A DNA stretch of 20,838 bases from IMG/VR virus record IMGVR_UViG_3300048042_000012, positions 1 through 20,838 of that record. One strand, 5' to 3'. The translations under genes and the position numbers were made by a program. Shown one piece after another: positions 3,426 through 19,526 of this stretch. The stretch is from a virus. A model generated the notes under the pieces. That model saw nothing but the letters and a program-made list of their open reading frames with translations. It made no database searches and was not told where the DNA came from. The stretch's first letter is position 1. Each line of letters begins with the position of its first letter.

Positions 3426-3851
3426 ATGGCAAACTCAAATACAGATATAAATCTAATAAAGAAGGCAAATTCTAAAACTTCTTATTCTGCACATCAAAAA
3501 CGTGAAATATTCAAATGCATGAATGATCCATTGTATTTTATGGAAACCTACATGTGGATTCAACATCCTGATCCGGCTAAAGGTAGAATGCGATTTACTG
3601 CGTTTGAATTTCAGAAACGATTAATAAATGCATATTGGCAGAACATTTCAGTTATAGCCATGTTACCAAGGCAGGCAGGCAAATGTTGTATAAATAGTAC
3701 TATAATAACTATTAGACAACCTTCAACCGGAGATATATATGACCTTCCAATTGGAACCTACTATGAATGGGCAGCTTGTATGCGAGATGGTACAACCCCT
3801 CCAGATATCAACCAATACAAAAGAGAAAACAACGGTAGGCAAATACTGTAG
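3426..3851 (+). CDS. 17: Large terminase fragment 1 fused to N-half of split intein 1
   Basis: Residues 1-86 are the N-terminal part of gp17-like large terminase, the packaging motor. The segment FEFQKRLINAYWQN precedes a P-loop that is cut in the middle: it reads MLPRQAGK, then switches to intein sequence at Cys87 (base 3684). The intein half is 55 residues to the TAG stop. Its block A is CCINSTIITIRQPSTGDIYD, which aligns position by position with known TerL N-inteins (Cys1, Thr6, hydrophobic 7-8). The missing TT of the GKTT motif is found directly after the matching C-intein at base 5226. The start has no clear ribosome-binding site. The tail beyond YYEW overlaps the next gene in another frame and is unlikely to matter for splicing. 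Confidence 0.88.
   Translation: MANSNTDINLIKKANSKTSYSAHQKREIFKCMNDPLYFMETYMWIQHPDPAKGRMRFTAFEFQKRLINAYWQNISVIAMLPRQAGKCCINSTIITIRQPSTGDIYDLPIGTYYEWAACMRDGTTPPDINQYKRENNGRQIL
3684..3851 (+). other. Split intein 1, N-intein (TerL P-loop site)
   Basis: The N-intein begins at the first of two adjacent Cys codons; taking the first as residue 1 restores GK|TT in the extein and keeps Thr at intein position 6. Only block A is present before the stop; blocks B, F and G are all in the reading frame starting at 4857. The likely functional part is about the first 28-30 residues, to YYEW, with the rest a tail produced by the insertion of the nuclease gene. Confidence 0.82.
3689..3696 (+). promoter_or_regulatory. 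Possible late promoter for the nuclease gene inside the intein
   Basis: TATAAATA, the exact T4 late promoter core, lies within the N-intein coding sequence 43 bases before the ATG at 3739, which itself has a GGAG site. Late promoters inside host-gene sequence are known to drive nuclease genes in T4 introns. The motif is partly forced by the coding sequence, so chance is possible. Confidence 0.25.
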
Positions 3852-4881
3852 ACCTATTACTAATTATATTTGTTTAAATTGTTCTATAGCTTTTAAAAGT
3901 AAAGCACATAATGCAGATGGATATTGCAGTGTGCATTGTAGAAAAGTTGCACATAGTATAACAAAATTTATTGGCATAGAAGGTACTGATTATATTGTCT
4001 GCCCAATTTGCAAAATACGAACACGGCAAATTAGCCCAAAACATGCTAAAATGCATGGGTTTGATTCTGCTAAGCACATGCAAGAATTTTTAAAAATGCC
4101 ATTGATAACATGTGAATTAAAGAAAGAATCAAGTGTCGGCGAAAATAACCCCGGCTATCACCATGGTGGAAAATTTAGCCATTTTAGTAAAAATTTTATA
4201 CATGGATATGATGAAGAAAAACATAATAAATTGATAGAGAATAATCGATTATTTAGAATCGATCACCCAGAATTATTTAAAACAGATATAGCATATTGGT
4301 TAAAACAAACAAATGGTGATGAAGTGTTAGCTAAACAATTATATATGAAATTTCAAATGAGAGATTTAAATTGGTTTATCAAGAAATATGGTGAGGATGA
4401 AGGTAAAATACGTCATCAAAATAAGATAGATAAATGGATTAATACTTTAAAATCAAAACCACTAGAAGAATTATTGGATATAAACAAACGTCGAAATACA
4501 TGTGGACCGTCGTCAAAATCCGAACGTGAGTTATTTGATAAATTATCTGAATTTTTCCCTAATTTGATTAGACAGCTATTATTGAGAAGGGAGAATATAA
4601 ATGGGGTATTCAATAAATTTTACTTGTATGATATGGCACTTAGTAATAAGATAATTGAATACAATGGTGATTACTGGCACGCTAATCCGGCTAAGTACGA
4701 TAGTATTACCTATGTAAATAAACACAATAATCAAGCATTTTCAGAAATAAGAGCAAGAGATGAAGATAAATTACAAGTAGCAATAGATAATGGTTATAGT
4801 CTGCTAACTATTTGGGAATCAGACTATAAATTAAATTCAAAGAAAGTTATAGAGCAATGCATTCAATTTCTGAATCAGTAG
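3739..4881 (+). CDS. Vsr-like (EDxHD-type) homing endonuclease between split-intein halves
   Basis: A 380-residue nuclease in a different frame from the terminase pieces. GGAG at 3729-3733 is five bases before this ATG, which favours it over the Met codons at 3763 and 3787. Two zinc-finger-like clusters appear: C45-x2-C48-x14-C63-x3-C67 and C88-x2-C91-x10-H102-x3-H106. A NUMOD-like GENNPGYHHGG segment follows at about 135-145. The C-terminal nuclease domain (260-380) has E262/E264, D298 in LYDMAL, E307 in IIEYNGDYWHANP with H314, D341, and the final LLTIWESDYK strand. This is the Vsr-like homing endonuclease family known to lie between split-intein halves in fractured phage genes. It overlaps fragment 1 by 113 bases and fragment 2 by 25. 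Target site is presumably the intein-free gene 17 P-loop; inferred. Confidence 0.85.
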   Translation: MTFQLEPTMNGQLVCEMVQPLQISTNTKEKTTVGKYCRPITNYICLNCSIAFKSKAHNADGYCSVHCRKVAHSITKFIGIEGTDYIVCPICKIRTRQISPKHAKMHGFDSAKHMQEFLKMPLITCELKKESSVGENNPGYHHGGKFSHFSKNFIHGYDEEKHNKLIENNRLFRIDHPELFKTDIAYWLKQTNGDEVLAKQLYMKFQMRDLNWFIKKYGEDEGKIRHQNKIDKWINTLKSKPLEELLDINKRRNTCGPSSKSERELFDKLSEFFPNLIRQLLLRRENINGVFNKFYLYDMALSNKIIEYNGDYWHANPAKYDSITYVNKHNNQAFSEIRARDEDKLQVAIDNGYSLLTIWESDYKLNSKKVIEQCIQFLNQ

Positions 4882-5225
4882 AACGAAAATTTATAGATCA
4901 GATTCAACTAAATGATTGGGAGATATTTACTGATTCTGGTTGGGTTCCGTGTATTGAAATATCAAAAACAATTGAATATCAAATTTATAATATAGTATTA
5001 GAAAATGGATATGAATTAGGTTGTGCTGATACACATATTGTATTTGATCAAAATTACAATGAAATATTTGTAAAGGATTTACAAATAGGTGATATAATAC
5101 TAACTGATCAAGGTGAGACAACAGTATCGTCTATTGTTATTAGTGACTTGTGCGAAAATATGTATGATGTTTCTGTTAATTCATATGATCATAGATATTA
5201 TACAAATGGTATATTAAGCCATAAT
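4857..5225 (+). other. Split intein 1, C-intein
   Basis: The 123-residue C-intein contains block B (IYNIVLENGYELGCADTHIV, with the conserved His; the usual Thr of TxxH is Ala), the block F region with a YDVSVNSYDHR segment, and block G, YYTNGILSHN. Asn is the last residue and the penultimate residue is His, as expected for Asn cyclisation. The +1 extein residue is Thr. Because block B is on this half, the split lies between blocks A and B rather than at the usual endonuclease site. Confidence 0.88.
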
Positions 5226-5909
5226 ACAACTTGCGCCGCTGGATTCTTGCTATGGTATGCGATGTTTAATGCTGATGTGACAATTTTAATTGCGGCTAAT
5301 AAATTTCGAGCAGCAACTGACATAATGGATAGAGTAAAATTTGCATACGAAGAATTACCCGATTGGTTACGAGCGGGAGTTACTACTTACAATGTACAAG
5401 ATATACGATTTGATAATAGATCAAGAATAAAAAGTACAACAACTACTCCTGATAGTGGTAGAGGTATGTCTATTTCATTATTGTATTGTGACGAGTTTGC
5501 ATTCGTGAAACCAAGAATAGCAGAAGACTTTTGGACAGCTATGAGTCCTACTTTAGCAACTGGTGGCAAATGTATAATAACTTCGACTCCAAACAGTGAT
5601 GAAGATAAATTTGCAGAAATCTGGTTTGGAGCAAATAAAACTGTAGATGATTATGGTGATGATACAACCGACGGTTTAGGTATAAATGGATTTAAGGCAG
5701 TTACAGCAAATAATAATGAGGTACCAGGAAGAGATGAAATTTGGGCTATACGAGAACGTAACAAGATAGGCGCTGATAAGTTTGATCGTGAATATAATTG
5801 CGTGAGCGCACATACAATTATAAATGTTTCAAATGAAAATGTCAAATTAGATATTACTATGAAAGATTTGTATAATTTATTAGATGATGGCATAGTTAGT
5901 GACAAATAA
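4857..5909 (+). CDS. 17: Large terminase fragment 2 flanked by C-intein 1 and N-intein 2
   Basis: A three-part polypeptide. Residues 1-123 are the C-half of split intein 1. Residues 124-314 are the middle of gp17, beginning TTCAAGFLLWYAMF, which completes the Walker A begun in fragment 1. This part holds Walker B with the catalytic Glu (YCDEFAF, Asp codon at 5490, Glu at 5493) and the coupling motif CIITSTPNSDEDKF. It ends at DKFDREYN. Residues 315-350 are the N-half of a second split intein. Only a weak GAG lies just before the ATG; the preceding nuclease stop overlaps by 25 bases, so translation may be coupled. The fragment contains most of the ATPase but lacks its P-loop Lys until trans-splicing occurs. 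Confidence 0.88.
   Translation: MHSISESVERKFIDQIQLNDWEIFTDSGWVPCIEISKTIEYQIYNIVLENGYELGCADTHIVFDQNYNEIFVKDLQIGDIILTDQGETTVSSIVISDLCENMYDVSVNSYDHRYYTNGILSHNTTCAAGFLLWYAMFNADVTILIAANKFRAATDIMDRVKFAYEELPDWLRAGVTTYNVQDIRFDNRSRIKSTTTTPDSGRGMSISLLYCDEFAFVKPRIAEDFWTAMSPTLATGGKCIITSTPNSDEDKFAEIWFGANKTVDDYGDDTTDGLGINGFKAVTANNNEVPGRDEIWAIRERNKIGADKFDREYNCVSAHTIINVSNENVKLDITMKDLYNLLDDGIVSDK
5799..5909 (+). other. Split intein 2, N-intein
   Basis: Cys1 at 5799 follows the terminase sequence FDREYN. The 36-residue N-intein (CVSAHTIINV, with Thr at position 6) holds only block A and ends at a TAA. Six bases later a separate nuclease gene begins. The matching C-intein is at 6928-7269, and joining there gives REYN|CQFLTADSTLINA, which reads as normal gp17 sequence. 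Confidence 0.85.
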
Positions 5910-5915
5910 TTCAAC

Positions 5916-6944
5916 ATGGCGTATTGTACTGTGAACGTATCTAAATATATTATATCAAAAATTGACGGCGGTAATTACTGTTTATCAAATGGACAATTTA
6001 CTAGACATTTGCAATTAAATGATATGACATATCAGCAATATTATGAGAAATATATTACAGGAATTATTGAAATATGTAAGTATTGTGGTAGACTAAAAAT
6101 GTTTTATCAAGCTACTAATACATATGCTGCTACATGCGGATCACCTAAATGCAGAGGTATTGTTATAAAAGAAACTAAAAATAATTGGACAGATGAACAG
6201 CGAGAAAAAGATTCTATTAATAAAAGAAAAGTTAATGCTGCCAGAACAGTTGAAGAAAAACGGAATATACTTGAAAAAGTAAAGAAAACAAATTTAGAAA
6301 AATTTGGTACTGAGTTCTCATTTAATTCTGATGAGCTTAAAGCTAAAGCAAAACAAACTAAACAATTAAAATATGGAAATGAAAAATATAATAACAGTAG
6401 AAAAGCTAGTAATAGTAGAATAAACAGATCAGATGATGAGAAATTAAAAACAATCAAACAACGTAAAGCTACTAATTTAGAGAGATATGGAGTCGAAAAT
6501 CCGTTGTTATCTCAAAATTTTATATCTAAATCAAATAAAGGTAACAGTTTAGTAAAAACATATACTATGCCATCGGGTAAAATTGTTGGTATTATGGGGT
6601 ATGAACCTATAGCCTTAAATATATTGTTAAAAACATATACTGAAAATGATATAGAAGTACACGATAATTTTACACATACATGTTTTGAAAAAATAGAATA
6701 TATTGCCGTTAATAGACATCATTTAAATTATTATCCAGATATTTACATTAAATCTACTAATACTATAATTGAAATAAAAAGTAAATGGTGGTGGGATGGA
6801 AACGGAAGTATTAAATATAAATCTAGGTTAGAAAATAACTTAAGAAAATTTCGAGCTGCAATAATTAACGGTTATAATTATGAGGTTTGGTTATTTGAAA
6901 ACAAATATGATTATAGGATAATACACAGTGAACAAGATATTTAG
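5916..6944 (+). CDS. PD-(D/E)XK-type homing endonuclease between halves of split intein 2
   Basis: A 342-residue free-standing nuclease. A four-Cys zinc-finger-like cluster lies at C54-x2-C57-x16-C74-x4-C79. Then come two or more repeats of the pattern NLEKFGTEFSFNS / NLERYGVENPLLSQ in a Lys-rich region, which I take to be DNA-binding. The catalytic core is near the C-terminus: YYPDIYI with D275, then IIEIKSKWWW with E286-x-K288, the PD-(D/E)XK pattern. No ribosome-binding site is visible before the ATG, six bases after the preceding stop. Its 3' end overlaps the third terminase fragment by 17 bases. The class differs from the Vsr-like nuclease in the first gap, so the two fractures were probably made by unrelated elements. 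Confidence 0.8.
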   Translation: MAYCTVNVSKYIISKIDGGNYCLSNGQFTRHLQLNDMTYQQYYEKYITGIIEICKYCGRLKMFYQATNTYAATCGSPKCRGIVIKETKNNWTDEQREKDSINKRKVNAARTVEEKRNILEKVKKTNLEKFGTEFSFNSDELKAKAKQTKQLKYGNEKYNNSRKASNSRINRSDDEKLKTIKQRKATNLERYGVENPLLSQNFISKSNKGNSLVKTYTMPSGKIVGIMGYEPIALNILLKTYTENDIEVHDNFTHTCFEKIEYIAVNRHHLNYYPDIYIKSTNTIIEIKSKWWWDGNGSIKYKSRLENNLRKFRAAIINGYNYEVWLFENKYDYRIIHSEQDI

Positions 6945-7269
6945 AAAAAATACATTAGGCTTAACAGTAGATACACCACTTGGATATAAAACCTTTGCAG
7001 GGGTAGCATATATGGGTGATAAAGAAATATTGAAATTAACTTTGTCAAATGGAAGATCTTTAGAATGTACAATCGATCATAAAATTTATATATCTGAATC
7101 AGAATATATATGTGCAAATGAACTCGAACTGAACCAAAGTGTAATAGCAAAAGAAGGAAAATTTGAAATCATATCTAAAATCCATACAGGTAAAATTGAA
7201 CCTGTATATGATTTGATAGAAGTAGATGGTGGTCACAGATATTATACAAATGGTATATTAAGTTCTAAT
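6928..7269 (+). other. Split intein 2, C-intein
   Basis: 114 residues with block B LSNGRSLECTIDHKIYIS (canonical T-x-x-H), block F near PVYDLIEVDGGH and block G YYTNGILSSN. The terminal Asn is preceded by Ser instead of the usual His, and the +1 residue is Cys. A Ser in the penultimate position occurs in some active inteins. Its last part shares a 26-base identical stretch with C-intein 1. Confidence 0.87.
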
Positions 7270-8034
7270 TGTCAATTCTTAACAGCTGACAGTACATTAA
7301 TAAATGCAGTGACATTACTTAACTTGCAAGGTATTAATCCGATATTTAAGACTAATGAAATTCGTTGGTATGAAAAGATTGAACCTAATAAAGTATATCT
7401 TGTGGCATTAGACCCTAGTGCAGGCGTCGGGAATGATCCAGCGGCAATTGAAGTATATAACCTACCTGATATGAAACAAGTAGCAGAATGGACACATAAT
7501 AGAACTAGTATCCCAAGTCAGGTTCGAATGATGCAAAATATAATCAATTTCATTGCAGCAGAGATGAAAAAGTTTCCAGAACAAACTGGTGATCCAGATC
7601 TTTATTTTACCGTTGAAAATAATACATGGGGCGAAGCTGCATTATTAACTATACAAGATATTGGCGAAGAACGATTTGACGCGTTAATGATGCATGAACC
7701 AAAAGTAAAAGGTGGTGCAACAAGACGTAAAGGTCTTAACACAAATGGTCGTACAAAGGCAATGGCTTGTACAAAACTGAAAAGTTTGTTAGAATCTAGT
7801 AGATTAAAAGTCTATAGCAAAGCATTAGTTAGACAATTAAAATTCTTTGTTAGCAAGGGTGATAGCTTTGCTGCAAAAGTAGGTGAAAATGATGATTGTA
7901 TTATGGCGTCATTATTATGCATAAGAATGATGATGATGGTTACTCGCTGGGATGAAAACATCGAGCACTTACTTAAAGATGATTTTGGTGATGAATCTTA
8001 CAGTGATCCAATGCCTATTAGTTTTGGATTTTGA
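6928..8034 (+). CDS. 17: C-intein 2 fused to large terminase fragment 3 (nuclease domain)
   Basis: It starts with GTG, preceded by TAGGA nine bases upstream. Residues 1-114 are the C-half of split intein 2. From residue 115 the terminase resumes: CQFLTADSTLINAVTLL, then the RNase H-like headful nuclease of gp17. Its expected acidic residues are visible: VALDPSAGVGNDP (Asp codon 7411), FTVENNTWGEAA (Glu at 7615), and GENDDCIMASLL (Asp codons 7891 and 7894). The exteins of the three pieces sum to 86 + 191 + 254 = 531 residues, within the range of T4-like large terminases (T4 gp17 has 610). Nuclease activity would not be tethered to the ATPase until the second splice. Confidence 0.88.
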   Translation: MNKIFRKNTLGLTVDTPLGYKTFAGVAYMGDKEILKLTLSNGRSLECTIDHKIYISESEYICANELELNQSVIAKEGKFEIISKIHTGKIEPVYDLIEVDGGHRYYTNGILSSNCQFLTADSTLINAVTLLNLQGINPIFKTNEIRWYEKIEPNKVYLVALDPSAGVGNDPAAIEVYNLPDMKQVAEWTHNRTSIPSQVRMMQNIINFIAAEMKKFPEQTGDPDLYFTVENNTWGEAALLTIQDIGEERFDALMMHEPKVKGGATRRKGLNTNGRTKAMACTKLKSLLESSRLKVYSKALVRQLKFFVSKGDSFAAKVGENDDCIMASLLCIRMMMMVTRWDENIEHLLKDDFGDESYSDPMPISFGF

Positions 8035-11079: not shown

Positions 11080-12147
11080 ATGAGGCCGTACGATATATCT
11101 CGTTTTAGAAAAGACATTACTAAGGCTATACCAGGTCTAAGTGTTGGGTTTCATGATCCAAGTACATGGATTGATAGTGGTAATTACGCGCTTAATTATG
11201 CAATAAGCGGAGACTTCACTAAAGGTATACCGCTAGGTAAGGTTACTATGTTTGCCGGCCAGTCTGGTAGTGGTAAAAGCTTTATTTGCGCAGGAAATAT
11301 TGTCAGAAATGCTCAAGCATCTGGTATATTTCCTATCATTATTGACTCAGAAAATGCACTTGACGAAAATTGGTTACAGCCGTTGGGCGTTAGCACTGAT
11401 GACGACAAATTACTTAAAGTTAATATGGCTATGATTGACGACGTTGCTAAGCTTATTAGCGATTTTATGAAGGACTATAAAGCAAGATTTGATAAGACTG
11501 ATCCTGTAGACAGACCAAAGGTATTGTTCGTACTAGATAGTTTAGGAATGTTGATGACTCCAACTGACGTTAATCAGTTTGAAGCTGGTGACCTTAAGGG
11601 TGACATGGGTAGAAAGCCCAAAGCATTAACAGCGTTGGTTCGTAATTGTGTTAACATGTTTGGTGAGTATGATGTTGGATTGGTTGTAACTAATCACAGT
11701 TATGCGTCGCAGGATATGTTCGATCCAGACGACAAGATATCTGGTGGTCAAGGCTTCATCTATGCAAGTTCTATTGTTGTAGCAATGCGTAAGCTTAAGC
11801 TAAAAGAAGACGAAGACGGTAAGAAGACTACAACCGTTAACGGTATCAGAGCACTATGCAAGATTATGAAGACTAGATTTAACAAACCATTTGAATCAGT
11901 TGAAATTAAAATCCCTTGGACAACTGGTATGAATCCTTTTAGTGGATTAATTGATTTGTTTAAAAATAAAGGTGTATTAATTAAAGATGGAAATAAATTG
12001 AAATATCATGATAGTGAAGGAACTGAACACAAATATTTCGAATCGCAGATACCAAATGATCTACTTGATCTTATAATGCTTGAATGGGATGAAAATAAAT
12101 TGCCTAATATCCCAATTGATATCCCAATAGATGACAGTGATGTTTGA
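11080..12147 (+). CDS. uvsX: UvsX recombinase (RecA family)
   Basis: A 355-residue RecA-like strand-exchange protein that loads on gp32-coated DNA and drives recombination-dependent replication. Walker A is AGQSGSGKS at residues 59-67. The catalytic-Glu region is IIIDSENALD at about 87-95, and Walker B is VLFVLDSLGM at 148-157. The NHSYAS and SGGQGFIYASS segments correspond to loop regions of UvsX. An AAAGGA site precedes the ATG. Residues 290-346 (GVLIKDGNKLKY and onward) recur at the end of the downstream nuclease gene with 48 of 57 residues identical by my hand alignment. The upstream copy is therefore full length and the gene looks intact, but its 3' end may have been brought in with the nuclease. 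Confidence 0.93.
   Translation: MRPYDISRFRKDITKAIPGLSVGFHDPSTWIDSGNYALNYAISGDFTKGIPLGKVTMFAGQSGSGKSFICAGNIVRNAQASGIFPIIIDSENALDENWLQPLGVSTDDDKLLKVNMAMIDDVAKLISDFMKDYKARFDKTDPVDRPKVLFVLDSLGMLMTPTDVNQFEAGDLKGDMGRKPKALTALVRNCVNMFGEYDVGLVVTNHSYASQDMFDPDDKISGGQGFIYASSIVVAMRKLKLKEDEDGKKTTTVNGIRALCKIMKTRFNKPFESVEIKIPWTTGMNPFSGLIDLFKNKGVLIKDGNKLKYHDSEGTEHKYFESQIPNDLLDLIMLEWDENKLPNIPIDIPIDDSDV
11947..12117 (+). repeat. uvsX 3' end, copy 1 of direct repeat
   Basis: This 171-base stretch encodes UvsX residues 290-346. It matches 12918-13088 in the same orientation and reading frame relative to the protein, including a 30-base identical run at 12070-12099 (copy 2: 13041-13070). The copies lie 971 bases apart. 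Confidence 0.9.
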
Positions 12148-12155
12148 TTAATAAC

Positions 12156-13121
12156 ATGTATTATGTGTATATTTTAAAAGATCCTAGGTCGGGTTTACCA
12201 TTTTATGTTGGAAAAGGTCAAGGAGAAAGGGCAGATAGTCATACTAAAAGAATTCAAGATGGCAAACGTACTGAAAATCCATATAAGGATTCTGTAATCA
12301 AACAAATTTTAGCAGAAAATTTAATACCCGAAATAGAATATGTTTATTATACTGATGATGAAATTGCAGCGTATGACTTCGAAGCGGATCTTATTATAAA
12401 ATATGGTAGGAAACGCTTTGACTATGATGGGATATTAACTAATTTATGTATTGATAATAGGCCACCTTCACAAAAAGGAAAATCATATATAGAAAGATAT
12501 GGTGACAATGCTATTAATGTGATCAACAAATATAGAGAAAGTTATAATAATAGTAGGCCATATCATAAATTGAGAAAATTAAGTATTGATCAAAAACAAA
12601 AATTAAGTGAACGTACGACTGGTACTAATAACCCATTTTATGGTAAGAAACATTCAACTGAATCTAAGAAGAGGATCAGTAATGCAAATAAAGGTAAATG
12701 TATTGGTGTAGACAATCCAAATGCTAGGATGTACTTATTTGTAGATAGCAATTACCGGATATATCGAGTAATTGGGGAATTTGCTAAATTTTGTGAAAAA
12801 ATGAATTTGAGTTATCAAGCTATGGGGCGAGGAATTCCTAAGAAATGGATAATTAAATCTGGTCCATCAAAAGGTTGGCAAGTATTAAATTTGACTTTAA
12901 ATTATGATAAAGATAGATTAATAAATTTATTTGAAGCTAAAGGTGTTTTAATAAAAGACGGAAATAAATTAAAATATAACGATAGTGAAGGAAATGAGCA
13001 TAAGTACTTTCGTTCGGGTATTACAAATGATCTTCTTGACCTTATAATGCTTGAATGGGATGAAAATAAACTGCCTGACATCCCTATTGAGTTTATAGCA
13101 GATGATGGCACAACTGTTTAA
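12156..13121 (+). CDS. GIY-YIG homing endonuclease fused to a second UvsX C-terminus
   Basis: I start at ATG 12156 (MYYVYILKDP) and not the TTG at 12144 that overlaps the uvsX stop; this gives 321 residues. The GIY-YIG domain covers residues 2-95: YVYIL (2-6), FYVGKG (16-21), the arginine in GERADSH (R25), and the likely metal-binding Glu in YDFEADLIIKYG (E76). A NUMOD3-like segment (GTNNPFYGKKHSTESKKRIS) follows, and then a helix-turn-helix-like region (FAKFCEKMNLSYQAMGRG). From residue 255 to the end the sequence is a copy of the UvsX C-terminus. The nuclease gene thus appears to have invaded the 3' end of uvsX, with the displaced tail left in frame behind it. Whether the tail is functional is unknown. 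Confidence 0.87.
   Translation: MYYVYILKDPRSGLPFYVGKGQGERADSHTKRIQDGKRTENPYKDSVIKQILAENLIPEIEYVYYTDDEIAAYDFEADLIIKYGRKRFDYDGILTNLCIDNRPPSQKGKSYIERYGDNAINVINKYRESYNNSRPYHKLRKLSIDQKQKLSERTTGTNNPFYGKKHSTESKKRISNANKGKCIGVDNPNARMYLFVDSNYRIYRVIGEFAKFCEKMNLSYQAMGRGIPKKWIIKSGPSKGWQVLNLTLNYDKDRLINLFEAKGVLIKDGNKLKYNDSEGNEHKYFRSGITNDLLDLIMLEWDENKLPDIPIEFIADDGTTV
12918..13088 (+). repeat. uvsX 3' end, copy 2, fused in frame to the nuclease
   Basis: It encodes LINLFEAKGVLIKDGNKLKY and the following residues, the counterpart of UvsX 290-346. Beyond this both copies diverge (IDIPIDDSDV against EFIADDGTTV). The frame is intact to a stop at 13119, and is followed by AAGGAG for the next gene, so this is probably the original end of uvsX. 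Confidence 0.9.
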
Positions 13122-14663: not shown

Positions 14664-15689
14664 ATGTCAAACACGTTGGTGCAGATCACAAAAGGTCGGA
14701 CGCGTGGTGGGGTTAAGGTTTCTAATATCGTTGTAGAATTGCTCGATGGGATGAAGACGGACAAGGATGGGATTTATATCACCGTTGACGGGAATAGCAT
14801 TTCGGAACTGCGTCAAGGGCGCAACAGGATTTACCTTGCTAGCAAAAATGATTTTCATCACCTCGAAGGTGGCAGCAAAATTGACACTGCTCCTAATAAG
14901 GACGTTGAGCGCACTGACGCTGAAATTTCCACAGATTTGATTGACACCTTTAACATCCTCGAAGAGATGGCTGATGCGGTTGCGACCGGCATTGTGCGCG
15001 GGTTGGTGGTTAGCGGTCCGGCGGGCATTGGCAAAAGCTTCCGCATTATGCAATCCATGGACAAGAATTTCAAGAATATTACGACGAAGGGCGGTTTGCC
15101 CATGTACGAAATAATTAGTGGTTGCACCACTCCTACAATGCTTTACGAGAAGCTTTGGGATAACAAAGAAGCTGGTAAGGTTATTATTTTTGATGACTGC
15201 GATCAAGTTTTGTTTGATGAAGATTCGCTCAACATGCTCAAGGCAGCACTGGATTCGAAGAAGACGCGCAAAGTTTGCTATAATGCTCGTAGCCATGCGC
15301 TTGAGGAGCGTGGTATTCCTAATCACTTTGAATTTGAAGCTGGTATTATTTTCATTACCAATATCAAATTTGATATGATTAAGAGCCAGCGTATATCGGC
15401 GCATTTGGAAGCGATTGTTAGCCGCTGCCATTACATGGATATTGGTGTTGACACCGCGCGCGAGAAGCTCATCCATATCAGGAATGTTGTTGAACTGTAT
15501 GATATGATGGCAGATTACAAATTTACTGCGCATCAGAAAGCTGAAGTGATTGACTACATCTTCGCTAATTACATAAATTTGCGTGAGCTTTCCTTGCGTA
15601 TGGTTATTAAGATTGCGGCGCTTCGAAAGGCGATGCCGCAGAACTGGACGAAGTTTGTTGAGCGTAGCTGCCATAGGAAGGCAGCATAA
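14664..15689 (+). CDS. Phage AAA+ ATPase
   Basis: A 341-residue P-loop ATPase of a type seen in T4-like marine phages. Walker A is SGPAGIGKS (residues 117-125), Walker B is VIIFDDCD (173-180), sensor 1 is IIFITNIKFD with N233, and an Arg-finger candidate is R243 in SQRISAHLEAIVSRCHY. The first 90 residues are a separate small domain with beta strands and lack these motifs. The function is unknown; as a AAA+ protein in a replication/recombination region it may remodel a DNA or protein complex. Base composition is clearly higher in G+C than its neighbours (15001-15060 has 34 G or C in 60; 13501-13560 has 17 in 60), which suggests a different origin. An intact antisense frame over its length is a by-product of this composition. 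Confidence 0.82.
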   Translation: MSNTLVQITKGRTRGGVKVSNIVVELLDGMKTDKDGIYITVDGNSISELRQGRNRIYLASKNDFHHLEGGSKIDTAPNKDVERTDAEISTDLIDTFNILEEMADAVATGIVRGLVVSGPAGIGKSFRIMQSMDKNFKNITTKGGLPMYEIISGCTTPTMLYEKLWDNKEAGKVIIFDDCDQVLFDEDSLNMLKAALDSKKTRKVCYNARSHALEERGIPNHFEFEAGIIFITNIKFDMIKSQRISAHLEAIVSRCHYMDIGVDTAREKLIHIRNVVELYDMMADYKFTAHQKAEVIDYIFANYINLRELSLRMVIKIAALRKAMPQNWTKFVERSCHRKAA

Positions 15690-16193: not shown

Positions 16194-16213
16194 GCATACT
16201 GTTTATAGTATGC
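16194..16213 (+). promoter_or_regulatory. Hairpin enclosing the uvsW start codon
   Basis: GCATACT (16194-16200) and AGTATGC (16207-16213) are perfect complements around a six-base loop. The uvsW ATG (16210-16212) lies in the 3' arm, and no ribosome-binding site is visible. Such a structure could block initiation on long transcripts. TTTACA at 16172 is a possible -35 element, but the matching -10 (CATACT, 16195) is poor. Confidence 0.45.
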
Positions 16214-18804
16214 AAACATGTATAATAACAATCGAAAATGAAGTCAGTATTAAATTAGATGGACTTGATCTAAAGACTCGACGCGATTGCGTTAAGGCTG
16301 TTAAGTATTTCTTGCCGCATGCTAGGTATAGTGCAGCTTTTAAACTCGGTCGATGGGATGGGACTACAAGTTTTTGTACAGTAGGTGGTAGAACCTACCT
16401 TAATCTATTAGACAAAATACTACCAATTATCAAGGATAGCGGTTATGACATAGTTATTGATGATCACAGACAAAGTTACGAATTTGACTTTGAAAACATT
16501 GATGAAAATTTCCTAAGTCACCTAACTTGGCCAGAAGGGCATCGTGCAGCAGGCGAGCCTATAATGTTACGAGACTATCAGGTACAATGTATTAATGAAT
16601 GTATTAATAATTTACAAGGTTTAACTATAGCGGCGACAGCGTCAGGGAAGTGTCAACCTCTTTCAAGTAAAATAAAAATTCCTGGGGGTTGGACTACTAT
16701 GGAGGCTATAACTGTGGGTGATATAATTACAGTACCTGATGGTAGTAATGCTACAGTATTAAATATATATGATCCTGGCATTAAAGATATATATGAAATA
16801 ACATTTGAAGATGGTAGAAAAGTTAAATCATGTGGTGATCATTTATGGAAGGTTCATAATCATGATTGGCCAGGTAAATGGAAAATACTTAGTTTGATTG
16901 ATATAATTGAAAAAAGAAAAATAAATCAACGAGCTATATCTATCCCATTAGCATCTATGAAATTTGATAATACTAATATTGATCTACCTATGAATCCATA
17001 TTTGTTAGGTGCATTATTAGGTGATGGATCATTTAGAGAGAATTTTGGTATCAGCTCAGCTGACCAATTTATTTTAGATAAGATATCATCATTATTAGAT
17101 AATGCTTATATTTTACATCATAATAATAATTATGATTATTCATTTAAGTTTAAAACACCTAAAATACATGCGGTTGCAAGATCGAATTGGATGAAACTTC
17201 ATCCAAAAAATCAAAATGGTAAATTAGTAAAAGGTTTACCTTATCCTACTTATCATAAATATAAAGCAATAATCAATGACTTAGGATTAAAAGGTACATA
17301 TAGTCATACCAAATTTGTACCTCAGATGTATCTTAATGCTGGATATCACCAGCGTATTGAAATGATACAAGGTTTATTAGATACTGATGGATATGTTAAT
17401 CAAAGAGGTTGCATTAGTTTTACTACTACAAGTAAACAACTTGCTGAAGATTTTGCATATTTAATACGAAGTGTTGGTGGTATAGCCAGACATACGCATG
17501 GAAAAAATAGAACATATAAATATAAAGGAGTTGTAACTCCTTGCAAAGATTGCTATAATGTATCTGTTTATCATCCAACTCCATCTATTTTAGTAACTCT
17601 TCCTAGAAAATTACAATTAATAGAAAAAAGAATTAAACGAGTAGCTAATAATAAGTTATTTGGTTTGGCAAGAAAAGCATTATTAAATATAATTGATATT
17701 AAAAAGGTATCAACAGAACCAGTTAGATGCATTATGATTGATCATCCAGATCATTTATATGTGACAGATGAATTTGTAGTTACTCATAATACTATTGTTA
17801 CCGCATCATTAAGTATGATAGCACAAAAATATGGTAGAACAATAATTATCGTCCCGAACAAAAATTTAGTCCAACAAACAGAAGAAGACTATCGCAACAT
17901 AGGATTAGATGTAGGTGTATTATACGGAGATAGAAAAGAATATAACAAGACGCATACAATATGCACTTGGCAGAGTCTAAATATATTAGATAAAAAGAAT
18001 AAAGATGCACTAGACGAAAATCAATTTGAAGTGTTTATGGATAACATCGTAGCAGTTATTTGTGATGAAGTTCATCTAGTTAAGAACACCAATGTAATTC
18101 ATACGTTGTTAACGACTACGTTTGCAGGTATTCCAATTAGGTGGGGATTAACAGGGACTATACCTGAAGAAGAATATAATCAGGTAAGTTTGTATAGTGC
18201 TATAGGACCTGTTATTGGAAATCTAACAGCTAAAGAATTACAAGATGCTGGTCATTTGGCACAATGTCATGTTAATATGATACAAACAACTGAGACAGTA
18301 GTGTATAGAACTTATCCAGAAGAATTAAAATATCTAGTTACTAATCCAATACGATTAGCTTGGTTAGCTAAGATGATCAAAGATATAGCATTAACTGGCA
18401 ATACATTAATTCTAATTGATCGTATTGAGACTGGCAAAATTTTACAAGAATTGATACCAGAATGTGTTTTCATTAGTGGCAAAATGAAAGCAACTGATCG
18501 TAAAGAACATTATAAAGATATTAACTTAGATAATAATGCTATAATGGTTGCTACGTATGGCACCACATCAACTGGTATTAGTATTAATAGAATTTTCAAT
18601 CTTGTGCTAGTTGAACCCGGGAAAAGCTTCGTAAGAGTGATACAAAGTATTGGTAGAGGATTACGTAAGGCAGATGACAAAGACGCAATATCAGTGTTTG
18701 ATATTTCTAGTAAATGTAAGTTTTCTAATAAACATATGCTTAAACGAAAAAAATTTTATGACACGGCGGAATACCCCTGGACACTTAATAAAATTACTTA
18801 TTAA
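16210..18804 (+). CDS. uvsW: UvsW helicase interrupted by an intein
   Basis: The 864-residue precursor is a UvsW-like superfamily 2 helicase of 484 residues plus an intein of 380. UvsW unwinds branched DNA and R-loops in the switch from origin to recombination-dependent replication. The N-terminal domain contains LDGLDLKTRRDCVKAVKYFL and FKLGRWDGTT, and the Q-motif region LRDYQVQCINECI follows. Walker A (ATASGK) ends at residue 147, the intein runs from Cys148 to Asn527, and the helicase resumes with TIVTASLSMIAQKYG. Motif II is DEVH (619-622); motif VI is QSIGRGLR (812-819). The ending SSKCKFSNKHMLKRKKFYD is UvsW-typical. The mature length is close to T4 UvsW (about 500). It must splice before it can bind ATP. 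Confidence 0.92.
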   Translation: MQTCIITIENEVSIKLDGLDLKTRRDCVKAVKYFLPHARYSAAFKLGRWDGTTSFCTVGGRTYLNLLDKILPIIKDSGYDIVIDDHRQSYEFDFENIDENFLSHLTWPEGHRAAGEPIMLRDYQVQCINECINNLQGLTIAATASGKCQPLSSKIKIPGGWTTMEAITVGDIITVPDGSNATVLNIYDPGIKDIYEITFEDGRKVKSCGDHLWKVHNHDWPGKWKILSLIDIIEKRKINQRAISIPLASMKFDNTNIDLPMNPYLLGALLGDGSFRENFGISSADQFILDKISSLLDNAYILHHNNNYDYSFKFKTPKIHAVARSNWMKLHPKNQNGKLVKGLPYPTYHKYKAIINDLGLKGTYSHTKFVPQMYLNAGYHQRIEMIQGLLDTDGYVNQRGCISFTTTSKQLAEDFAYLIRSVGGIARHTHGKNRTYKYKGVVTPCKDCYNVSVYHPTPSILVTLPRKLQLIEKRIKRVANNKLFGLARKALLNIIDIKKVSTEPVRCIMIDHPDHLYVTDEFVVTHNTIVTASLSMIAQKYGRTIIIVPNKNLVQQTEEDYRNIGLDVGVLYGDRKEYNKTHTICTWQSLNILDKKNKDALDENQFEVFMDNIVAVICDEVHLVKNTNVIHTLLTTTFAGIPIRWGLTGTIPEEEYNQVSLYSAIGPVIGNLTAKELQDAGHLAQCHVNMIQTTETVVYRTYPEELKYLVTNPIRLAWLAKMIKDIALTGNTLILIDRIETGKILQELIPECVFISGKMKATDRKEHYKDINLDNNAIMVATYGTTSTGISINRIFNLVLVEPGKSFVRVIQSIGRGLRKADDKDAISVFDISSKCKFSNKHMLKRKKFYDTAEYPWTLNKITY
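16651..17790 (+). other. Full-length intein with LAGLIDADG endonuclease in UvsW
   Basis: The intein starts at Cys (CQPLSSKIKIPGG) and ends VVTHN, with His-Asn at the end and Thr as +1 residue. Block B is ITFEDGRKVKSCGDHLWKVH, with Cys in place of the usual Thr of TxxH. Two LAGLIDADG helices are LLGALLGDGS (from residue 265, acid D272) and IEMIQGLLDTDGYV (from 383, acid D393), so the nuclease looks intact. Block F is MIDHPDHLYVTDEFVV. At 380 residues it is a typical bifunctional intein with the nuclease between blocks B and F. Confidence 0.92.
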
Positions 18805-18806
18805 TC

Positions 18807-19526
18807 ATGTTTATAGAAAATAAATACAAACTTTGGTATTTCAATATAATATATCACGCACAAAATAGACAACTTAACAAAAATATATATGTTGAGAAAC
18901 ATCATATCATACCAAAATGTATGAATGGTGATAACTCTATAAACAATATTGCTGTATTAACAGCAAGAGAACATTTTATTTGTCATAAGTTACTAATAAA
19001 ATTTGTTATTAGTAATTTTCATAAAATAAAAATGAAACATGCATTAGGAAAATTTGTTCAATGTAATAGAAATCAAAGAAGATTATTAACTTCGCATCAA
19101 TATGAATCAGCACGTAAAGCAATAATAGAAGCCAGAACTGGTCAGAAACATACCATTGATTCACGAAATAAAATGAGTATTACCAGAAAAGGTAGAATAC
19201 CGTGGAATAAAGGAAAGAAAGGATCACAAGTAGTTACTGAAGAAATGAAAATTGCCCGAAGCATCAGACTGAAAGGAAAGACATTTACTGATCGATTTGG
19301 TGAAGAGCGCGCTCAATTAATAAAACAACAAATAACGAATAGTAAACTAGGTAAACCATCAGGTATGTTAGGAAAGAAACACAGTTTAGAAACAAGATTA
19401 AAACAATCTAAACCAAAACAAGGAAGTCCTCATATTAGACTGATATGTCCTAATTGTAATTTACCTGATAAAACACCTCGACATATTAGATTATATAGTA
19501 AATTAGACAAAATATCTTACACATAA
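18807..19526 (+). CDS. HNH homing endonuclease next to uvsW
   Basis: A 239-residue free-standing nuclease beginning two bases after the uvsW stop. The HNH core is VEKHHIIPKCMNGDNSINNI with H32/H33, then N46-N47 and LTAREHFICHKLL with H56 and H60. NUMOD3-like DNA-binding repeats follow (TGQKHTIDSRNKMS, and GMLGKKHSLETRLKQS). The end has CPNC (residues about 214-217) without the later Cys or His that usually completes a zinc finger in such proteins, so the C-terminus may be shortened. No ribosome-binding site is apparent; translation may depend on coupling to uvsW. Its target is presumably in the uvsW region of a related phage. Confidence 0.85.
   Translation: MFIENKYKLWYFNIIYHAQNRQLNKNIYVEKHHIIPKCMNGDNSINNIAVLTAREHFICHKLLIKFVISNFHKIKMKHALGKFVQCNRNQRRLLTSHQYESARKAIIEARTGQKHTIDSRNKMSITRKGRIPWNKGKKGSQVVTEEMKIARSIRLKGKTFTDRFGEERAQLIKQQITNSKLGKPSGMLGKKHSLETRLKQSKPKQGSPHIRLICPNCNLPDKTPRHIRLYSKLDKISYT

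Follow-up and report, generated by a model that had tools for sequence, protein, structure and literature searches.

The stretch of DNA considered here, called the window throughout, is the 20.8-kb IMG/VR record IMGVR_UViG_3300048042_000012 from a T4-like phage, in which the large terminase gene, terL, is laid out on the plus strand as three separate open reading frames (ORFs; 3426-3851, 4857-5909 and 6928-8034) coding for successive portions of a large terminase (TerL) of the T4 gp17 type. The first ORF carries extein part 1 (3426-3683, 86 aa), whose C-terminal PRQAGK is the first half of the Walker A motif, followed by the N-terminal half (IntN) of split intein 1 (3684-3848, 55 aa), which begins with Cys1 (CCINSTIITI) and is closed by a TAG stop (3849-3851). 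The second opens with the C-terminal half (IntC) of the same intein (4857-5225, 123 aa, ending in GILSHN), continues with extein part 2 (5226-5798, 191 aa, from TTCAAG to REYN), which contains the Walker B sequence LLYCDE and an STPN motif and matches Terminase_6N at E=7e-10, and ends with IntN of split intein 2 (5799-5906, 36 aa, again with Cys1, CVSAHTIINV) and a TAA stop (5907-5909). The third, with a GTG start, consists of IntC of split intein 2 (6928-7269, 114 aa, ending in GILSSN) and extein part 3 (7270-8031, 254 aa, beginning CQFLTAD), which holds the nuclease domain and reaches its stop at 8032-8034. Each gap is occupied, likewise on the plus strand, by an ORF for a putative homing endonuclease (HE): HE1 (3739-4881), with GGAG upstream of its ATG at 3739 and homology beginning near 3865, shares its 5' end with IntN1 and its 3' end with IntC1, and the end of HE2 (5916-6944) is overlapped by the GTG start of IntC2 over 17 nt.

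A first-pass annotation made from the letters alone had proposed these three terminase frames, which prove exact to the base, together with intein halves matching across RQAGK/C...HN/TT and REYN/C...SN/C (the slash marks the splice point) and a continuous 531-residue extein with all ATPase and nuclease motifs; relatives that are gap-free across the junctions, the residue count and the alignment with T4 gp17 bear out both of the latter. Its interpretation as two split inteins with two trans-splicing events likewise fits the anatomy, but it had passed over the homing endonucleases in both gaps.

Excision at QAGK/C, LSHN/T, REYN/C and LSSN/C leaves exteins of 86 + 191 + 254 = 531 aa with a calculated mass of 60.3 kDa. 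The joined extein matches the T4 gp17 structures 3ezk (E=2e-52) and 3cpe (E=3e-51) in an alignment that covers Walker A, the DE of Walker B, the LDPSAG acidic motif and the ENDD motif, so that, by homology over both the ATPase and the nuclease domain, the TerL of the window is a T4 gp17-type large terminase. The same alignment puts the second break (site 2) after T4 residue 353, near the end of the ATPase domain, and, with Walker A of T4 gp17 being what we take to be residues 161-167, it puts the first (site 1) inside that motif, at K166/T167. An IMG/VR scan with piece 2 as the query returned 80 loci, and a scan with piece 3 alone gave a single short match. In intein-free close relatives (most of L012-L034 and others; L012-L034 are 71-83% identical to the window TerL over the matched part), extein parts 1, 2 and 3 are contiguous, and because these empty sites align gap-free across both junctions, the junctions are real and no chance effect.

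Both intein pairs have the end residues of class 1 inteins, Cys1 and a terminal Asn, with Thr (site 1) or Cys (site 2) at position +1, and Cys1 and the terminal Asn are kept over wide divergence at both breaks. The C-halves resemble split inteins of solved structure, IntC1 matching Cat (6dsl, E=4.8e-6) and gp41-1 (6qaz, E=1.1e-4) and IntC2 matching Cat (E=2.7e-6) and VidaL (E=6e-5). The site-1 intein has AxxH instead of TxxH in block B and a penultimate HN, the site-2 intein has TxxH and a penultimate SN, with Ser for His, and AxxH and SN are each conserved among relatives. IntN1 aligns with the contiguous intein of relative L358, a site-1 homologue predicted to adopt the HINT fold (mean predicted local distance difference test score, pLDDT, 73.9), with VidaL as its best PDB match and with the listed PDB matches being inteins or intein-like domains; this prediction was made on one contiguous intein, and the low-confidence loop of the model (within residues 49-87) coincides with the break point of the window. 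Between the window and L018, ratios of nonsynonymous to synonymous substitution rates (dN/dS; Nei-Gojobori method, NG86, with dS saturated for many pairs) are 0.19 for HE2 and 0.31 for IntC2, and by this measure both are under purifying selection. Trans-splicing of the window TerL is very likely.

HE1 is assigned as Vsr-like because of its conserved motifs (KIIEYNGDYWH...IWESDY) and because homologues in Aeromonas phages are annotated as VSR endonuclease; it has no match in Pfam. Its relatives occupy site-1 TerL gaps in more than 40 loci, and a free-standing homologue lies immediately 5' of the intein-less terL of Caulobacter phage Cr30. HE2 belongs to DUF7487 (PF24308, E=1e-33), and ORFs of its family are found at site 2 of L018, L170-L175, L198, L202, L203, L212, L284 and others. 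The HE2 alignment has four invariant Cys residues in the N-terminal half and a PD...ExK-like motif (D275, E286, K288). Since the PDB matches of its structure model (pLDDT 76; predicted template modelling score, pTM, 0.41) are weak, the best at E=0.03 and Vsr among them, the nuclease assignment draws on the conserved PD...ExK residues and on context. In L388 the N-terminal part of HE2 is retained and the remainder is different, as though site and N-terminal part belonged together. From homology, context and motifs, both HE1 and HE2 are expected to be homing endonucleases, which would explain why the terL breaks exist. In L018, a degenerate copy of the extein sequence immediately upstream of site 2 (IGIDKFNREY) is found at 6688-6720, after the stop of IntN2 and before the start of the endonuclease; it is identical at 24 of 33 bases, is equalled in none of 20000 shuffles and is perhaps a relic of endonuclease insertion or of co-conversion.

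How widespread is such cutting of terL? Alignments of the C-halves from sites 1, 2 and 3 (site 3 being in Walker B) served as queries for three more scans, and a classification based on hidden Markov models then gave TerL clusters at 90% identity (n=149), 49 of which have no fracture, 79 one, 18 two and three have three; these counts are not frequencies in nature, because the sample was picked by intein and endonuclease similarity, and a few loci whose insertion site was unclear in the automatic classification (e.g. L268, L309, L315) were left unused. The first-pass annotation had thought a double fracture rare or undescribed and had suggested looking for the same three-piece layout in metagenomes. 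The layout was indeed found again in two others (L343/L344 and L388), and with two or three fractures in 21 of 149 clusters the arrangement is not unique. Four-piece TerLs with three split inteins occur in L183/L184, L298/L299 and L397/L398, one contig of each pair having been inspected by eye. Besides sites 1 and 2, terL is interrupted at site 3 (LLY/CDE, Walker B) and site 4 (GxS/CxLLYxDE), with fractures in L093, L096, L176, L397 and others, and breaks in three regions, namely Walker A, the vicinity of Walker B and the end of the ATPase domain, occur in every pairwise combination and as triples. By these classifications, two-fold and three-fold cutting of terL is recurrent in nature.

The occupants of the two window sites vary. 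At site 1, fractures with an HE1-family endonuclease are also present in L036, L090 and numerous other loci, while L018 and L170 have fractures with an HE2-family endonuclease at site 2. Site 1 holds a contiguous mini-intein in Ackermannviridae (Kuja, LIMEstone1 and Vibrio phage VP-1), a large contiguous intein of a different type in L009 and L035, and a split intein without an endonuclease in Agrobacterium phage Atu_ph07; site 2 holds a split intein with an HNH-like ORF in L044 and, in VP-1, one with a GIY-YIG-like domain fused to IntN.

A further arrangement at site 1 is seen in L091, L252, L356, L364, L376, L394 and L408, where one contiguous intein ORF encloses, in a different frame, a gene of 275-292 codons for an HE1-type endonuclease. 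None of the seven intein frames contains a stop, whereas synonymous shuffles of the endonuclease (1000 each) average 15-20 stops, with a minimum of 7; across lineages, the endonuclease frame is conserved and the intein frame much less so. Pairs with and without the endonuclease are available (L355/L358, L376/L375). These overprinted endonucleases suggest how an intein may carry an endonuclease gene and yet stay contiguous. The site-1 frame common to the first two TerL pieces of the window has 56 stops against 54 expected if unconstrained, and on this count the window is either past the overprinted state or was never in it. The order of the contiguous, overprinted and fractured states was not fixed by a weakly supported 72-tip tree with 20 state changes.

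The inteins at the different sites appear to have separate histories. A tree of C-halves with 189 tips requires 10 changes of insertion site, compared with 88.7 when the labels are shuffled. In the window, IntC1 and IntC2 have only 26% identity, against 57-64% between each of them and its nearest same-site relative, the pattern expected if the inteins home separately and do not cross-pair. Where checked, the two or three inteins of a single TerL share 16-31% identity. Clustering by site and low identity within a TerL argue that each site was invaded separately by its own intein lineage, with no copying within one phage. Separate lineages in turn predict orthogonal pairing of the IntN and IntC halves, and inteins that co-occur in one protein should be mutually orthogonal.

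The explanation that we favour, at a probability of about 0.88, is that this terL was invaded twice and that its three polypeptides are converted by two split inteins, each accompanied by an endonuclease, into one spliced TerL. The ORFs, the continuity of the extein, the homology of inteins and endonucleases and the recurrence of the layout support it directly; expression, trans-splicing, orthogonal pairing, cleavage specificity and homing are what we infer. Two separate elements, each an intein with a homing endonuclease, would have entered a T4-like terL at two sites, so that the products would be TerL(1-86)-IntN1, IntC1-TerL(87-277)-IntN2 and IntC2-TerL(278-531). After translation, the cognate halves (IntN1/IntC1 and IntN2/IntC2) would associate, each pair would form a HINT domain, and by class 1 chemistry each intein would excise itself and ligate its exteins, yielding a packaging ATPase/nuclease of 531 residues and ~60 kDa. 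The free-standing endonucleases, for their part, are expected to cut the uninterrupted terL of co-infecting phages at both sites, whereby each element would spread.

Several observations weigh against this explanation. The penultimate His of IntC2 is replaced by Ser and the block-B TxxH of IntC1 by AxxH, both replacements being conserved in relatives, and dN/dS of IntN2 is near 1, a value that its few codons render uninformative. We infer the orthogonality of the two window inteins from their divergence only, and piece 2, being an IntC-protein-IntN molecule, could be circularised if the non-cognate halves paired; since mis-pairing would have that outcome, orthogonality is directly testable. 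Finally, the window covers just 20.8 kb of the genome, which leaves room for an intact TerL outside it.

This last point is also what speaks for regarding the locus as a decaying pseudogene beside another, active TerL, the remainder of the genome lying outside the fragment. Yet all three extein pieces are intact, HE2 and IntC2 appear to be under purifying selection, and no second, uninterrupted TerL was found in the 155-, 242-, 327- and 329-kb contigs of fractured relatives, which makes decay highly improbable. It is also very unlikely, if slightly less so, that the two window inteins are of the ordinary contiguous kind, each with an internal endonuclease domain, and look split through sequencing error or recent frameshifts or stops. 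The N and C pieces do share a frame at site 1, one in-frame stop separates IntN2 from HE2 at site 2, and contiguous forms of the site-1 intein exist; but the stops of the site-1 frame are as numerous as in an unconstrained frame, and the same fractures, with their overlapping starts and stops, recur in independent contigs, with N/C frame offsets that take all three phases at every site. Each C piece, moreover, begins with ATG or GTG at a homologous position, and this start overlaps the endonuclease end at site 2 in the window, L018 and L170, with a similar overlap at site 1 in many lineages. Recurrence, frame offsets and conserved overlaps thus largely refute the sequencing-error, contiguous-intein interpretation.

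Could the pieces instead work without protein splicing? Non-covalent assembly has precedents among genes in pieces of T4-like phages, namely the split NrdA of phage Aeh1 and the split gp43 of Aeromonas phage 25 (PMC2988022). Both breaks have nevertheless kept matching intein halves that begin with Cys1 and end in Asn, an unspliced intein would break the Walker A loop itself (K166/T167), and homologous contiguous inteins occupy site 1, which together leave this alternative little credence. Less credible still is the joining of the frames at the RNA level, by a self-splicing intron, or by recoding through frameshift or readthrough, even though, for the similar TerL layout of Campylobacter phage IBB_35, the authors reported an intein together with an endonuclease-containing intron (PMC3322345). 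RNA splicing into one mRNA, and re-sequencing that shows two ordinary continuous inteins, had been named by the first-pass annotation as findings that would overturn its proposal. Neither was borne out in silico: independent contigs carry the same fractures, and an Rfam scan of the window detected no group I or group II intron at E<=0.5, so an RNA intron was rejected; recoding was rejected because the frame relations among the pieces are not fixed, and the extein junctions become exact only when the intein halves are removed at the protein level.

Compared with known systems, the twice-invaded terL combines familiar components. Fractured genes, in which the halves of a split intein flank a free-standing endonuclease gene, are reportedly the subject of Dassa et al. 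2009 (NAR 37:2560), where part of the loci are said to contain Vsr-like endonucleases; we know of no gene broken at two sites among them. The window has in common with them the interruption of a conserved gene at a split intein and a free-standing endonuclease gene in the gap, and differs in that the gene is broken at two sites, and in relatives at three, each with its own element. Fractured genes and split TerL inteins are thus already known, whereas for multiple fracture of one gene no report could be found in the literature searched, which did not take in Dassa et al. 2009.

Both window inteins have the features of atypically split TerL inteins, namely a short IntN, a long IntC and a C-part similar to Cat. 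GOS-TerL and AceL-TerL, with IntN of 37 and 25 aa and IntC of about 104 (PMC11766414), and the consensus Cat (PDB 6dsl) share with them the TerL host, the short IntN and the long IntC; window IntN2 (36 aa) comes close to that of GOS-TerL, and IntN1 (55 aa) and the two IntCs (123 and 114 aa) are longer. GOS-TerL and AceL-TerL were, however, studied as tools, as single splits, whereas the window has a second split intein in Walker A of the same protein. The gp17 mini-inteins of Kuja (a Vibrio phage) and LIMEstone1 (a Dickeya phage) sit at exactly the same residue as window site 1, and the gp17 mini-intein of Campylobacter phage CP220 lies in the Walker A region a few residues upstream; unlike the window inteins, all three are contiguous, in one ORF and without an endonuclease. 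VP-1 gp17 has two inteins at the two sites of the window, that at site 2 being split, but its site-1 intein is contiguous and its GIY-YIG-like endonuclease is fused to the site-2 IntN. PolB of Pseudomonas phage MIJ3 (PMC6892783) resembles the window as an essential phage gene with an endonuclease gene between split intein halves, and differs in its single fracture, its HNH endonuclease and the gene concerned.

What the window and its relatives would then represent, as we think reasonably probable, is natural tandem trans-splicing, in which one essential enzyme is made from three polypeptides (four in relatives) through two (three) split inteins that are orthogonal to one another, with a homing element of its own at every site and with site 1 offering an evolutionary series of contiguous mini-intein, overprinted intein and fractured gene. 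Fractured genes would accordingly cease to be single-break curiosities and become a state that recurs and can be stacked in an enzyme ranking among the most conserved of phages, and such loci would provide natural sets of co-occurring split inteins whose orthogonality is the property required for three-segment ligation.

Two isolated Campylobacter phages offer a natural comparison pair. In F379 (L417, 2382-5728) TerL is fractured, with the N piece, the endonuclease and the C piece as separate genes bearing intein halves, and CP220 (L416, 78-2312) has a contiguous intein in the same place (PRQ/C...HN/SSKS). IBB_35 is related to F379, and by this comparison its layout is probably also a fracture. 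In CP81 (L415, 3004-4332) the gene annotated terL1 begins with an intein C-half and continues with TerL from about Walker B on; its N-terminal TerL piece does not adjoin this gene and must be encoded at another place.

Elsewhere in the window, at 11080-13121, a GIY-YIG/NUMOD3 endonuclease ORF comes immediately after uvsX, and its terminal portion of about 60 residues repeats the 3' end of uvsX, as if the endonuclease had been inserted in uvsX and the tail duplicated. A UvsW-like helicase (16210-18804) carries a contiguous LAGLIDADG intein in Walker A (ASGK/C...HN/T) and is followed on its 3' side by an HNH endonuclease (18807-19526). On the minus strand, a 335-codon open frame (14667-15674) runs antisense to a 341-codon ATPase ORF (14664-15689) and is probably a by-product of codon bias.

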